Positions 52,922 to 58,874 of a DNA stretch of 64,000 nt are shown piece after piece. The stretch covers positions 6,015,001 through 6,079,000 of the forward strand of contig NZ_CP015637.1 of NCBI RefSeq assembly GCF_001708445.1. The letters run 5' to 3'. The DNA comes from Pseudomonas fluorescens. GTDB taxonomy: Bacteria; Pseudomonadota; Gammaproteobacteria; Pseudomonadales; Pseudomonadaceae. The stretch's first letter is position 1; the number at the start of each line of letters is the position of its first letter. The translations under genes and the position numbers were made by a program. Under the pieces are notes generated by a model, which worked only from the letters and a program-made list of their open reading frames with translations, was not told the origin of the DNA and ran no database searches.

Positions 52922-54340
52922 TTAACGCTTCGCCGAAGCCAGCAGGGTGGAGCGCTCCTGATCCATGCGCGCCATCAGCGGCTGGCTCTGTTGCATGAAG
53001 CGCGCACGCTCGGCCTTGGCGATGGGGTCGGCCATGGGTAGCTTTTGGCCCAATGGATCGACGTGTACGCCATTGACTTGGAACTCATAATGCAAGTGCG
53101 GTCCGGTAGACAGGCCGGTAGTGCCGATATAACCAATCACCTGGCCTTGCTTCACGGTGCCGCCCGTCTGCACGCCCTTGGCGAACCCTTGCATGTGGCC
53201 ATAAAGGGTACGGTAGGTGTTGCCGTGCTGGATGATCACGGTATTGCCGTAGCCTCCGCGACGACCGGCCAGCAGCACCTTGCCGTCACCGGCGGCCTTG
53301 ATTGGCGTACCACGAGGGGCGGCATAGTCGACGCCTTTGTGGGCGCGGATTTTGTTCAGAATTGGATGCTTGCGGCCCATGGAGAATCGCGAGCTAATAC
53401 GAGCGAAGTCGACAGGCGTGCGGATAAACGCCTTACGCATGCTGTTGCCATCGGCGGTGTAGTAGCTGCTGTTGCCTTGCTTGTTGGTGTAGCGAACTGC
53501 GGTATAGGTCTTGCCGCGGTTGGTGAAGCGTGCGGAGAGAATATTGCCGGTGCCGACCACTTTACCGTTGGCGACCTTCTGCTCGTAGATCACGTCGAAT
53601 TCATCGCCTTGGCGGATGTCCTGGGCGAAGTCGATGTCGTATCCAAATACGCTGGCCATGTCCATGGTCATGCTATGGGACAGGCCGGCGCGTGCAGCGG
53701 ACTGCGACAAGGAGCTGTTGATCACGCCGTGTACATAAGCAGAGCGCATCACCGGCTTGGTGGTGACACGATTGAAGGCAAAGCCCTTGGCGCCCTTGGT
53801 CAGGGTGATGCTTTCGAGGTCGCTGATGTTGCTGTGCAGGTTATTCAACTGGCCATCTGGGGTCAGTTCGAACTCAAGCTTCTGCCCGTGCTTGAGTTGG
53901 GTGAATTGCTTGGCCTGTTTGTCACTGGCCAGTACTTCATTAACCGTGGCGGCGGGCAGGCCGACCTTTTCGAACAGGGTCGACAACGTATCGCCTTTTG
54001 CGACGATGACTTCGCGGTGTTGCGGATTCTTGGCGACATCTGCTGCCGGGGCAGGTGCTGGTTTAGCTGCTTGCTGGGTGTCTTCGGGGCTGCTTTCTAT
54101 CTGGGCGAACGGTGATTCAGTAGCGGTAGTTGTGGCTTGCTGTGCGTCGGAAGCGTCTTGATCTTGTGTCAGTTGCTCAACCGGGCTTTCCAGGTCAAGG
54201 CTCAGGGATGTTCGTTTGGCCTCTACATCACTGGAAGGGAATACCAGGAGCGCCAGGCTGAGAAGGGCGGCGATACCACTTGCTGCGAGCAGGTGGGTCT
54301 TCGGGTAAAGCGGCGGCGCTTTAGACGGTTCAGTGGTCAT
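52922..54340 (-). CDS. M23 family peptidoglycan DD-metalloendopeptidase (MepM-like)
   Basis: 472 residues. The N-terminal membrane anchor (TSGIAALLSLALLVF-like) is followed by a Pro/Ala/Gln-rich linker, a LysM/OapA-type region (VIVAKGDTLSTLFEKVGLP), and a LytM/M23 domain with zinc ligands in RAHKGVDYAAPRG and GPHLHYEFQVNG. It probably cleaves peptide cross-links during wall growth. The start MTTEPSKAPPLYPK is preferred by family; no Shine-Dalgarno is visible, and an upstream ATG at 54385 also lacks one. Confidence 0.9.
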   Translation of the reverse strand: MTTEPSKAPPLYPKTHLLAASGIAALLSLALLVFPSSDVEAKRTSLSLDLESPVEQLTQDQDASDAQQATTTATESPFAQIESSPEDTQQAAKPAPAPAADVAKNPQHREVIVAKGDTLSTLFEKVGLPAATVNEVLASDKQAKQFTQLKHGQKLEFELTPDGQLNNLHSNISDLESITLTKGAKGFAFNRVTTKPVMRSAYVHGVINSSLSQSAARAGLSHSMTMDMASVFGYDIDFAQDIRQGDEFDVIYEQKVANGKVVGTGNILSARFTNRGKTYTAVRYTNKQGNSSYYTADGNSMRKAFIRTPVDFARISSRFSMGRKHPILNKIRAHKGVDYAAPRGTPIKAAGDGKVLLAGRRGGYGNTVIIQHGNTYRTLYGHMQGFAKGVQTGGTVKQGQVIGYIGTTGLSTGPHLHYEFQVNGVHVDPLGQKLPMADPIAKAERARFMQQSQPLMARMDQERSTLLASAKR

Positions 54341-54356
54341 AGGTAATTTTGACTTT

Positions 54357-54400
54357 GAAGATGAAATGGAAAAGATGAATGACATGATGAAGATGAAATA
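54357..54400. repeat. degenerate GATGAA tandem sequence upstream of the M23 peptidase
   Basis: About 44 bases of imperfect GATGAA/ATGGAA units on the plus strand, read as CU-rich TTCATC on the minus strand in the 5' region of the M23 gene. It is low-complexity and distinct from the REP families. Confidence 0.5.
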
Positions 54401-54549
54401 ACTGTATAAAATATAACCAAATCATCTGTGGTGCAAGCTCGCGAACGCTGTGCTTGCTGAACGGTGTCCGTGCGCAGGGCAAAACTTGTAATTAGTCCCT
54501 GATCTTGTATGGTTGGTTCCCTTTTGAATCTGAGCCTTGCGGGTCTGTT

Positions 54550-55749
54550 ATGAAGTCGGTTGAAGAGCAGCTAGCGCTGATAAAACGTGGTGCGGAAGAA
54601 CTGTTGGTCGAGTCTGAGCTGATCGAAAAGCTCAAGCGCGGCCAGCCCCTGCGTATCAAGGCCGGCTTTGATCCGACGGCGCCGGATCTGCACCTTGGGC
54701 ATACCGTGCTTATAAACAAGCTGCGTCAGTTCCAGGAACTGGGGCATCAGGTCATCTTCCTTATAGGTGACTTCACCGGGATGATCGGCGATCCGAGTGG
54801 CAAGAGCGCAACGCGTCCGCCACTGACTCGTGAGCAGGTTCTCGATAATGCCGAGACCTACAAGACCCAGGTGTTCAAGATTCTCGATCCTGCCAAGACC
54901 GAGGTGGCCTTTAACTCCACCTGGATGGATCAGATGGGGCCGGCCGACTTTATTCGCCTGACGTCCCAATACACCGTGGCGCGCATGCTTGAGCGAGATG
55001 ACTTCGACAAGCGCTACTCCACCAACCAGCCTATCGCGATTCATGAGTTCCTCTACCCGTTGGTGCAAGGGTATGACTCGGTGGCTCTGCGTGCCGACGT
55101 TGAGTTGGGTGGTACCGATCAGAAGTTCAATCTGTTGATGGGGCGCGAGTTGCAGCGTGCATATGGGCAGGAAGCCCAATGCATTCTGACCATGCCGTTG
55201 CTGGAAGGCTTGGATGGCGTCAAGAAGATGTCCAAGTCGCTGGGTAACTATGTGGGTATCCAGGAGGCGCCAGGCGTGATGTATGGCAAGCTGGTTTCTA
55301 TCCCGGATGCGCTGATGTGGCGTTACTTCGAGTTGTTGAGCTTTCGTTCTATGGATGAAATCAACGCGCTGCGTGCTGAGGTCGAGGCGGGGGCTAATCC
55401 GCGCGACGTGAAGATCAAGCTGGCCGAAGAGATCGTTGCGCGTTTCCATGGTGAGGAGGCGGCCGCCAGTGCTCACCGTGCGGCAGGCAATCGCATGAGA
55501 GATGGCGAGCTGCCGGATGATTTGCCGGAGATCGAGTTGGTAGCTGCAGAGGCGATGCCGATCGCGGCTGTCCTTAATAAGGCGGGGCTGGTGAAGAACT
55601 CGGCGGTTGCACGTGACCTTCTGGGTTCGGGTGGTGTGCGTATAGATGGTGAGGTGGTTGATCGCACCTTTATATATGAGCTGGGTGCTACCCATGTTTG
55701 CCAGGCTGGGAAGAAGGCATTTGCGCGTATTACGCTTAAATCCGAATAA
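54550..55749 (+). CDS. tyrS: tyrosyl-tRNA synthetase
   Basis: A 399-residue class I synthetase of the TyrZ type seen in Pseudomonas. The HIGH motif reads HLGH at residues 48-51, and KKMSKS is intact in [14 protein letters not shown]-terminal S4 RNA-binding domain ends the protein. The start [14 protein letters not shown] was chosen; 15 upstream codons lack similarity. In P. aeruginosa this gene immediately precedes an rRNA operon. Confidence 0.95.
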
Positions 55750-55764
55750 GTCTGAAATTAAGTG

Positions 55765-55862
55765 TTGACGGCGTTTTATATCTGTCTATAATTCGCCCCA
55801 CTTCCGGCGCAGTCGAAACGGAAAACTCCTTGGTAAACAAAGAGTTACGCAAGATTCGACAA
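55765..55862 (+). promoter_or_regulatory. orphan rRNA-operon-type promoter and leader fragment
   Basis: TTGACG (55765-55770), a 16-base spacer, and perfect TATAAT (55787-55792), followed by a GC-rich discriminator (TCGCCCC). About 70 bases after that (including GGCGCAGTCGAAACGGAAAA) match what I recall of Pseudomonas rRNA leaders. It starts 15 bases after the tyrS stop, where an rrn operon lies in P. aeruginosa. No 16S, 23S, tRNA or 5S sequence follows. Confidence 0.6.
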
Positions 55863-55880
55863 CGCGGCGCCTGTGAGTTC

Positions 55881-55904
55881 TTCGCGAGCAAGCTCGCTCC
55901 TACA
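55881..55904. repeat. solitary REP (GCGAGCAAGCTCGCTCCTACA type)
   Basis: One REP arm of the family of 62997-63097, between the orphan leader and the long inverted repeat. No inverted partner nearby. Confidence 0.75.
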
Positions 55905-55929
55905 AAAAAGCCTTAACTGAACGGCATTA

Positions 55930-56006
55930 GGGCTTGCCCCGCGTTGGAGTGCGTAGCGCTCCCAAGATTTTTGGGGCCGCTACGCACTCCAACGCGGGGC
56001 AAGCCC
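55930..56006. repeat. long perfect inverted repeat (29-bp arms)
   Basis: Arms at 55930-55958 and 55978-56006 (starting GGGCTTGCCCCGCG and its complement) are perfectly complementary over 29 bases. The 19-base loop also folds on itself (CCCAA/TTGGG). The sequence differs from the other REP families. It is probably a REPIN-type element of another class, 109 bases before the TldD-like gene. Confidence 0.85.
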
Positions 56007-56115
56007 GCTCGCCACAGGGGCACTTGCCACAAAGAATCACCTTTCCTTGATCAGCCCCCAGCCCAGGCCTACTCTGTTTGCCTGCCCGCGCTGAGCCGCC
56101 CACAAGGAAGGCCCC

Positions 56116-57558
56116 ATGTTCGAACACCACGCCACACTCAAAAAACATTTCAGTGCCCTGCGCACCACCGCCGACTTCTTCTCCCTGCGCTACGTACGTG
56201 AGTCCGGCCACTACCTGTCGGTGCGCAAGAACGTCGCCGAACCGCCACACCTGAACCACGACGCAGGCGCCATGCTCACCGTGCGTGTCAACGGCGTCGA
56301 AGCCTATGCCGCGACCCACGATATTTCCCTGGCCGGCCTGCAAGCGGCCCTTGAACGTGCCGAACAGCAAGCGCGCCTGATCAAGCCTCACGCCCTGCTC
56401 GACCTGCGCGATCAACAGGTCTCCAGCGACGTGGCCGACTACCTGTCACCGAACCTTGCGCAAGCCTTCCCTTCCTTGAGCGACTGCTACCAACTGCTGG
56501 GTGATGAATCCGCCGCCGTGCCCCGCGACGAACGCCTGGTCAACTGGGAAGTCAGCCTCGGCCTGAGCCACGTCGAGCAGATCTACCTCAATAATGCCGG
56601 GGCCGAACTGCGCCAGGCCCAACGGTTCGTATTCCCCGGCGTCAACGTCACGGCCTACGACGGCAACGACAGCCAGACCCGTACCCTCGGCGGCAGCAAC
56701 TTCGGCCAGCAAGGCAGCTTTGACGTGATCGAGCGTTTTGGCCTGGTCGGCGCCGCACCCCGCATCGCCGACGAAGCCCTGCAACTGCTGCTGGCGCCGA
56801 ATACGCCCCAAGGTCCGCGCGACCTGCTGCTGATGCCCGACCAGATGATCCTGCAAATCCACGAATCCATCGGCCATCCACTGGAGCTCGACCGCATCCT
56901 GGGTGATGAGCGCAATTACGCCGGCACCAGCTTCGTCAAGGCCAGCGACTTCGGTCACCTGCAATACGGCTCCAAGCTGTTGAACGTGACGTTCGACCCG
57001 GACATTCCCGAACAACTTGCCAGTTATAGCCATGACGACGACGGCAGCGCCGCCAGCAAGCAGTTCCTGATCCGCGAAGGGCTGCTGCTCAAGCCGTTGG
57101 GCGGCGCGCTGTCGCAATTCCGTTCGGGCATGAACGGTGTGGCCAACAGCCGTGCCAGCAGTTGGAACCGCCCGCCGATCGACCGCATGGCCAACCTGAA
57201 TATCGAAGCCGGCGATAAGAGCCTGGCGCAACTGATTGGCGGCATCGAACACGGCATCCTGATGTCGACCAACCGTTCGTGGTCGATCGACGATGCGCGC
57301 AATAAATTCCAGTTCGGCTGCGAGTGGGGCCAGTTGATTGAAAACGGTGAGCTCAAGGGCGTGGTAAAAAACCCCAACTACCGGGCTATCTCCGCGCAGT
57401 TCTGGCGCAACCTCAGCGCAGTGGGCGACGCCAGCACCTTCAAGGTCCTGGGCACGCCCAACTGCGGCAAAGGCGAACCCAACCAGGTGATCCGCGTCGG
57501 CCATGCCTCGCCCGCCTGTGTGTTCAGCAACGTTGATGTATTCGGGGGAGATGCCTGA
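56116..57558 (+). CDS. TldD/PmbA family metallopeptidase, catalytic (TldD-like) subunit
   Basis: A 480-residue TldD-family protein with the metal motif HESIGH (H249, E250, H254) and the second-site Cys in NCGKGEPNQ (C450), so it should be the active partner. TldD/TldE heterodimers cleave unfolded or modified peptides and mature microcin B17-type products. It overlaps the TldE-like gene by one base. The canonical tldD and pmbA of Pseudomonas are expected elsewhere and apart, so this is probably a second pair. AAGGAAGG lies upstream of the start. Confidence 0.9.
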   Translation: MFEHHATLKKHFSALRTTADFFSLRYVRESGHYLSVRKNVAEPPHLNHDAGAMLTVRVNGVEAYAATHDISLAGLQAALERAEQQARLIKPHALLDLRDQQVSSDVADYLSPNLAQAFPSLSDCYQLLGDESAAVPRDERLVNWEVSLGLSHVEQIYLNNAGAELRQAQRFVFPGVNVTAYDGNDSQTRTLGGSNFGQQGSFDVIERFGLVGAAPRIADEALQLLLAPNTPQGPRDLLLMPDQMILQIHESIGHPLELDRILGDERNYAGTSFVKASDFGHLQYGSKLLNVTFDPDIPEQLASYSHDDDGSAASKQFLIREGLLLKPLGGALSQFRSGMNGVANSRASSWNRPPIDRMANLNIEAGDKSLAQLIGGIEHGILMSTNRSWSIDDARNKFQFGCEWGQLIENGELKGVVKNPNYRAISAQFWRNLSAVGDASTFKVLGTPNCGKGEPNQVIRVGHASPACVFSNVDVFGGDA

Positions 57559-58874
57559 TGAACAACTTCAAGGCATTGGTGCAGTGGCTCAAGCAGGCCC
57601 TCACCGACAAGGAACAATTTCACCTGGGCTATGCCGCCGAATCGTCCGAGTTCGTGCGTTTCAACCACGCCAAGGTGCGTCAGGCCGGGCAGGTGCAACA
57701 GGCCAGCCTCACCCTCAAGCTGATCAACGACGGCCGCCATGCCGACCTGGGCATCACCCTGGCCGGCGAACCGGAGCTGGACCGCCAGCGCCTCGCCGAC
57801 GGCCTGCAACAGTTGCGTGAAACCTTGCCACTGCTGCCGCACGACCCGTACTTGCTGCTCAACCACAACGCCTGGCAAAGCCACAACGAACAGGCGCGCC
57901 CCCTGCCCGACCTGGCGCGAGTGCTGGAGGAAATCAGCCAGGCGGCGCACGGCGTCGACCTGGTCGGCTTTTATGCCGCAGGCCCGATCAGCCGTGGCTT
58001 TGCCAGTTCCAACGGCGCATTTGGCTGGCACCAGGCCAATAGCTTCAACTTCGATTTCAGCCTGTTCCACGCCAATGGCGAAGCGGTGAAAGCCAGTTAT
58101 GCCGGGCACACCTGGAACAGCGACGAGTTCGCCCGGCGCTTCCAACTGGCCCGCCAACAGCTGGAGTTCCTCGACCGCCCGCTGCACACACTGGCGCCTG
58201 GGCAATACCGCGCCTACCTGGCCCCCGCGGCGCTGGAAGAAATCATCAGCATCATCACTTGGGGTGGTTTTTCCGCCCAGGCCATCGCCAGCAAAGGCAG
58301 CTCGTTGCAACGGTTGTATGCCGGCGAACAATCGCTGAGCCCGCTGGTGACGGTGGATGAGCAGATCAGCGGCTCCCTGAGCCAGGCGTTTTCCACCGAG
58401 GGCTACCCGCGCAGCGATGTCACGCTGATCAACGCCGGCAAAGCCGATGGCCAACTGGTGAACTCGCGCAGCGCCGCTGAATACGGCCTCAGCGCCAACG
58501 GCGCCAGCCGCGACGAATCCCCCAGTGCCTTGCAGATGGCGGCGGGCACCTTGGCCCAGGCCGATATCCTCAAGCAACTGGGCACCGGGCTGTATATCAG
58601 CAACCTGTGGTACCTGAACTACTCCGACCTGCCGGCCGCCCGCCTGACCGGCATGACGCGCTTCGCCACGTTCTGGGTGGAAGACGGTGAGATCAAGGCG
58701 CCGGTCAGCACCATGCGCTTTGATGACAGCGTCTACAGCTTGCTCGGGTCGCAGTTGGAGGCCCTGACCGCCGAGCGCGAACTGCTGCTGTCGGCCAGTA
58801 CCTACAGCCAACGCAACACCGCGTCCAACCTGTTGCCGGGGGCGTTGGTAAAACGCCTGACCCTGACCCTGTAA
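57558..58874 (+). CDS. TldD/PmbA family protein, non-catalytic (TldE-like) subunit
   Basis: A 438-residue family member lacking the HExxxH motif, as TldE/PmbA do, so it is the expected inactive partner of the preceding gene. Conserved C-terminal segments are VEDGEIKAPVSTMRFDDSVY and LPGALVKRLTLTL. It is translated from an overlapping TGATG junction. A REPIN follows. Confidence 0.88.
   Translation: MNNFKALVQWLKQALTDKEQFHLGYAAESSEFVRFNHAKVRQAGQVQQASLTLKLINDGRHADLGITLAGEPELDRQRLADGLQQLRETLPLLPHDPYLLLNHNAWQSHNEQARPLPDLARVLEEISQAAHGVDLVGFYAAGPISRGFASSNGAFGWHQANSFNFDFSLFHANGEAVKASYAGHTWNSDEFARRFQLARQQLEFLDRPLHTLAPGQYRAYLAPAALEEIISIITWGGFSAQAIASKGSSLQRLYAGEQSLSPLVTVDEQISGSLSQAFSTEGYPRSDVTLINAGKADGQLVNSRSAAEYGLSANGASRDESPSALQMAAGTLAQADILKQLGTGLYISNLWYLNYSDLPAARLTGMTRFATFWVEDGEIKAPVSTMRFDDSVYSLLGSQLEALTAERELLLSASTYSQRNTASNLLPGALVKRLTLTL

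Follow-up and report, generated by a model that had tools for sequence, protein, structure and literature searches.

The window analyzed here is a stretch of 64,000 nucleotides (positions 6015001-6079000 of a single 6,641,144-base contig). It contains tyrS, which encodes a tyrosyl-tRNA synthetase, followed by a promoter and the beginning of an rRNA operon (rrn) leader, a block of palindromic repeats, and two TldD/PmbA-like genes (Table 1). A sequence-only reading of this DNA had described a near-consensus sigma-70 promoter with an rRNA-type leader directly after tyrS, and had proposed that the strain lost or relocated an rrn copy, leaving an orphan promoter that now reads toward the repeats and the TldD-like gene.

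Table 1. Features at the tyrS locus, in positions of the window.
Feature	Position	Strand	Evidence and remarks
tyrS (tyrosyl-tRNA synthetase)	54505..55749	+	ORF; PF00579, E 4.2e-87; left neighbor of an rrn operon in relatives
Distal rrn promoter	55765..55792	+	-35 TTGACG 55765-55770; -10 TATAAT 55787-55792; counterparts 484-531 bases before 16S (G017, G005, G010, G018)
77 bases identical across five rrn-leader copies	55784..55860	+	Here the tyrS contig presumably ends, having entered the collapsed rrn repeat by a single k-mer
Presumed false join of two contigs	55860..55861	.	Relatives continue with leader and 16S
REP-type palindromic repeats	55861..56020	+	Start of the right-hand piece
TldD/PmbA-like metallopeptidase gene	56116..57558	+	PF19289, PF01523, PF19290
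Second TldD/PmbA-like gene	57558..58874	+	PF19289

The promoter itself was borne out by a sigma-70 scan of positions 54300-56300, in which TTGACG and TATAAT, separated by a spacer of 16 bases, fit the consensus at 11 of 12 positions and formed the only sigma-70-like site in the region even at a lower threshold of 9/12. Shuffled versions of the same region contained a mean of 0.9 sites at that threshold, so the number of sites does not by itself exceed chance; the site stands above chance because it matches the rrn leaders that precede 16S genes. The promoter is followed by TTCGCCCCACTTCCGGCGCAG and then by approximately 50 further leader bases, in which a GTCGAA/TTCGAC inverted repeat is visible in the letters, read as such rather than folded. 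No Rfam family, rRNA included, exceeded its gathering score anywhere in the window.

The segment 55755-55862 was compared with 29 genomes (the own genome and 28 others) and matched 16 of them, own genome counted, all belonging to the same genus. In four single-contig relatives (G017, G005, G010, and G018), all seven loci examined carry the promoter and leader in front of 16S, with 484-531 bases between the -10 box and the 16S start motif AGAGTTTGATC, confirming the proposed resemblance to Pseudomonas rRNA leaders and to the regions upstream of 16S. The gene order in G017 is tyrS, promoter, leader, and 16S, then tRNA-Ile and tRNA-Ala, and finally 5S, a terminator, and a birA-type gene. Three -10-like boxes were observed 5′ of 16S in these relatives, at approximately -484 to -531, -319 to -328, and -207 to -210 relative to the 16S motif (L028, L044, L030, L046, L035, L048, and L034). 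One rrn operon of G005 (L063) has two tandem 5S 3′ ends with a terminator-like sequence after each.

A genus-wide search matched 147 of 149 genomes, own genome counted, and the best-scoring 30 tyrS loci (own genome and 29 relatives) were fetched with 1.5 kb flanks where the contig allows. Ten of the 29 relatives extend at least 1.5 kb beyond the promoter and all ten have 16S there, at +466 to +856. The remaining 19 stop 54-534 bases beyond the promoter with no 16S motif shown and, because flanks are 1.5 kb wherever the contig allows, these short loci are contig ends. The locus of the own genome is the only one of the 30 that continues, over 1576 bases, and still shows no 16S. The spot after tyrS, earlier taken for an rrn position, is indeed one in all testable relatives (10/10; 29 examined), and none of the 29 was found to have the sequence downstream of tyrS without ever having carried an rrn operon. 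Judged by its similarity to the leaders 5′ of 16S in relatives, the segment 55765-55860 comprises the distal promoter of an rrn operon and the first part of its leader. The leader had been drawn two bases too long, as the similarity to rrn leaders ends at 55860 and not at 55862; the AA at 55861-55862 is common to the REP-type repeat family on the right side.

The absence of rRNA from the window was as described, but the leader is not a single orphan, since the genome has five. The four further copies lie at 2019855, 11450, 678091, and 5533375 with 90-91% identity, and the stretches of approximately 7 kb downstream of each contain no Rfam match, no tRNA, and no N; thus, neither in the window nor in these sister stretches does Rfam place 16S-23S-5S behind a leader. 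All five leaders share an identical 77-mer ending in GAGTTACGCAAGATTCGAC (ATTCGAC) and diverge immediately after it, into REP-like letters in the window and three other copies and into an IS3-type element with an integrase core domain in one. Leftward from this breakpoint, identity between the window copy and any of the other four extends over exactly 77 bases, and the four sister copies agree with each other over 96-97 bases. Five leaders imply at least five rrn operons.

The complementary ends came to light when the sequence that flanks 5S on its 3′ side in the G017 tyrS operon was used as a query against the own genome. One long match (5842402-5844499) contains birA (PF03099 BPL_LplA_LipB and PF08279 HTH_11), and three additional copies of the rrn terminator were recovered. 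All four terminator copies are preceded by a 3′ part of 5S that starts at GTAGTGAAACG, with unrelated sequence before it. A single full 5S was found (739206-739321); the exact 77-mer that opens the four pieces recurs in it and ends at its 3′ edge, where the pieces read GAAACCCC and the full copy reads TCTTCGCG. Moreover, one 5S piece is preceded by an IS fragment of 77 bases, which matches without differences the beginning of the IS3-type element behind another leader.

The rRNA visible in the own genome amounts to this full 5S and one adjoining 23S 3′ end; a 5S scan of the genome returned the full copy only and missed the four truncated pieces. Positions 740001-745000 (L056:10002-15001) are exactly 5000 N, which hide most of the only visible rrn copy and look like block masking. 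Scans of the own genome for 16S found nothing, which is no proof of absence because the visible rrn copy is mostly masked, and a tRNA scan around the visible rrn end, which adjoins the N block, showed none. Other wholly masked rrn copies may exist, yet they would not explain five cut leaders. Assuming that the next contig overlaps by 77 bases up to the TGCAAAAATGGGGGG end at 745015, positions 739197-744938 (5742 bases) would belong to the rrn contig. Between the same boundary letters (GTCTATAATTC at the left), seven operons of G017 and G005 are 5743, 5743, 5751, 5758, 5758, 5820, and 5821 bases long, with the masked stretch in one of them (L062) counted at its stated length; as the left edge of the own copy is masked, the agreement is a fit in length and not a reading.

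On the right side of the breakpoint, the window continues with REP-type inverted repeats. The start of this right-hand piece is common to three other places in the genome over 87, 80, and 78 bases, and the preceding bases differ. This sharing alone says little because the REP family matches over approximately 78-96 bases anyway (62 genome matches, self included, at E ≤ 1e-10 for the query 55863-56010). In both G017 and G004, a betA-like gene (GMC oxidoreductase) sits beside the TldD/PmbA-like genes, on stretches other than that of tyrS. In the own genome, betA, a candidate left neighbor of the TldD-like gene, is followed by REP repeats and another gene. A REP repeat 3′ of betA (L113, G000:C1 at approximately 5888600-5888840) is broken by about 15 unrelated bases, GGAGCGAGGGGGACGCCTAGTTCTTGCTCGCG, which may reflect a further join or a minor insertion.

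Flanks that adjoin in relatives are scattered in this genome. The birA gene, which follows the tyrS rrn operon in G017, lies approximately 228 kb from the tyrS break. Similarly, to the left of one of the 5S pieces lies a gene that in G004, G017, and G126 is separated by approximately 0-155 bases from the ABC transporter found here beyond the right edge of the N block; in the own genome, the distance is approximately 192 kb (745001 vs 937395), and both separated ends show TGCAAAAATGGGGGG. This adjacency was not seen in G005, whose fetched stretch has no match to the first sequence. The roughly 1350 bases between the gene-side sequence and the 5S piece are unmatched in the relatives' stretches and hold an IS110-family transposase; the shared TGCAAAAATGGGGGG would then be the end of an IS110-family element, another contig-breaking repeat. 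All five leaders break at one base and all four 5S ends at another, with 77-base overlaps, and flanks that adjoin in relatives are scattered. For these reasons, whatever stands right of 55860 most likely does not naturally adjoin the leader, and the window is most likely chimeric at 55860/55861. A strong promoter reading into the repeats and the TldD-like gene, as first proposed, is therefore unsupported, and that reading should be discarded.

We consider it highly probable (approximately 97%) that the segment after tyrS is a genuine rrn start, cut at a base common to four other copies, and that the missing rRNA is an artefact of short-read contigs assembled with a k-mer length of 77 and pasted together. 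A de Bruijn-graph assembler would represent every rrn operon by a single common path; each contig at its flanks would end after the first k-mer of that path (77 bases), and the operon would be output once, as its own contig of approximately 5.74 kb. The contigs would afterwards have been joined end to end by a person or a program, with neither gaps nor Ns. From the identical breakpoints, the 77-base overlaps, the scattered flanks, the single visible rrn copy, and 16S at the same locus of relatives, we infer the type of assembler and the concatenation. The combination of breakpoints identical at both operon ends, overlaps fixed at 77, and REP or IS repeats at which flanks meet unrelated sequence points to de Bruijn contigs in particular. 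All five leaders (5/5) and all 5S pieces found (4/4) end at one fixed base, and the overlap is 77 at the 5S side, in the IS piece, and in the comparison of the window leader with its four sisters, the leader side being compared among leaders and by length only as the collapsed copy is masked there. A k-mer length of 77 is a standard SPAdes value. The single contig and the 100% completeness figure argue only superficially for a finished assembly. Owing to the presumed join at 55860/55861, the leader is not followed by 16S-23S-5S in its own sequence, and in the living strain tyrS would be followed by an rrn operon and then, as in G017, by birA.

A real loss, in which the strain deleted five rrn operons, the one behind tyrS among them, and left stringent-type promoters driving the downstream sequence, is very improbable. 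It would account for an intact promoter with no rRNA 3′ of it, but five deletions would have to share one 5′ end base and four 3′ remnants a second identical base, three overlaps share the one length of 77, and the operon halves are joined to REP, IS, or other sequence and not to each other. A genuine deletion would have joined the left and right flanks, whereas the tyrS leader abuts the TldD-like gene and birA with its 5S end lies far off. Less probable still is a real relocation, in which recombination between rrn operons or IS elements moved the tyrS and birA flanks apart. Inversions mediated by rrn operons are known in bacteria, and the separation of birA from the tyrS break, given that in G017 this gene immediately follows the tyrS rrn operon, is in keeping with such an event. 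Recombination between rrn operons swaps flanks and leaves whole operons at the junctions, whereas the cuts in the present operons fall at two fixed bases and no rRNA was matched near the five leaders. The identical breakpoints, the equal overlaps, and the scattered flanks leave the originally proposed loss or relocation unsupported, although some real rearrangement relative to the relatives may additionally be present. Equally hard to credit as relocation is a Pseudomonas with a single rrn operon and five former rrn promoters turned into stringently controlled promoters of REP transcripts and neighboring genes. Finally, we reject as least probable of all a dispersed small-RNA family that resembles the rrn leader (the promoter and approximately 60 bases with a GTCGAA/TTCGAC stem): five near-identical copies in one genome and the visible inverted repeat would suit it, but there is no Rfam match, the 3′ end coincides with the presumed k-mer boundary, and 16S follows the element in relatives (7/7 and 10/10, the G017 tyrS locus being in both sets).

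With assembly collapse as the preferred explanation, the orphan leader of the window is most likely not a real biological feature but an ordinary artefact, and it has no consequence as biology because the cell most likely has the operon. It serves as a warning, as a single-contig, 100%-complete genome appears to carry silent joins, and gene neighborhoods, rrn copy number, and "orphan" promoters inferred from such a genome would be wrong. Overlaps of equal length at repeat ends offer a simple quality-control test for pseudo-chromosomes.

Compared with the rrn upstream regions of G017, G005, G010, and G018, the window has the same promoter, discriminator, and leader, and in G017 and others also the same position after tyrS; in the relatives, the leader passes two more promoter-like sites and reaches 16S, whereas in the window it stops at 55860. 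In Pseudomonas putida KT2440, a tyrS-specific primer identified rrnC (PMC6505042), a parallel to the window locus except that there the operon is present. The same account describes two promoters for P. putida rrn, compared with the three -10-like boxes in the relatives examined here. The collapse itself resembles that addressed by the riboSeed paper, according to which rDNAs collapse during de novo assembly and collapsed rDNA repeats are suspected in several reference genomes (PMC6009695). The present case differs from the collapse described there in that the flanking contigs were apparently also joined with no Ns, which makes the break invisible and lets it look like biology.
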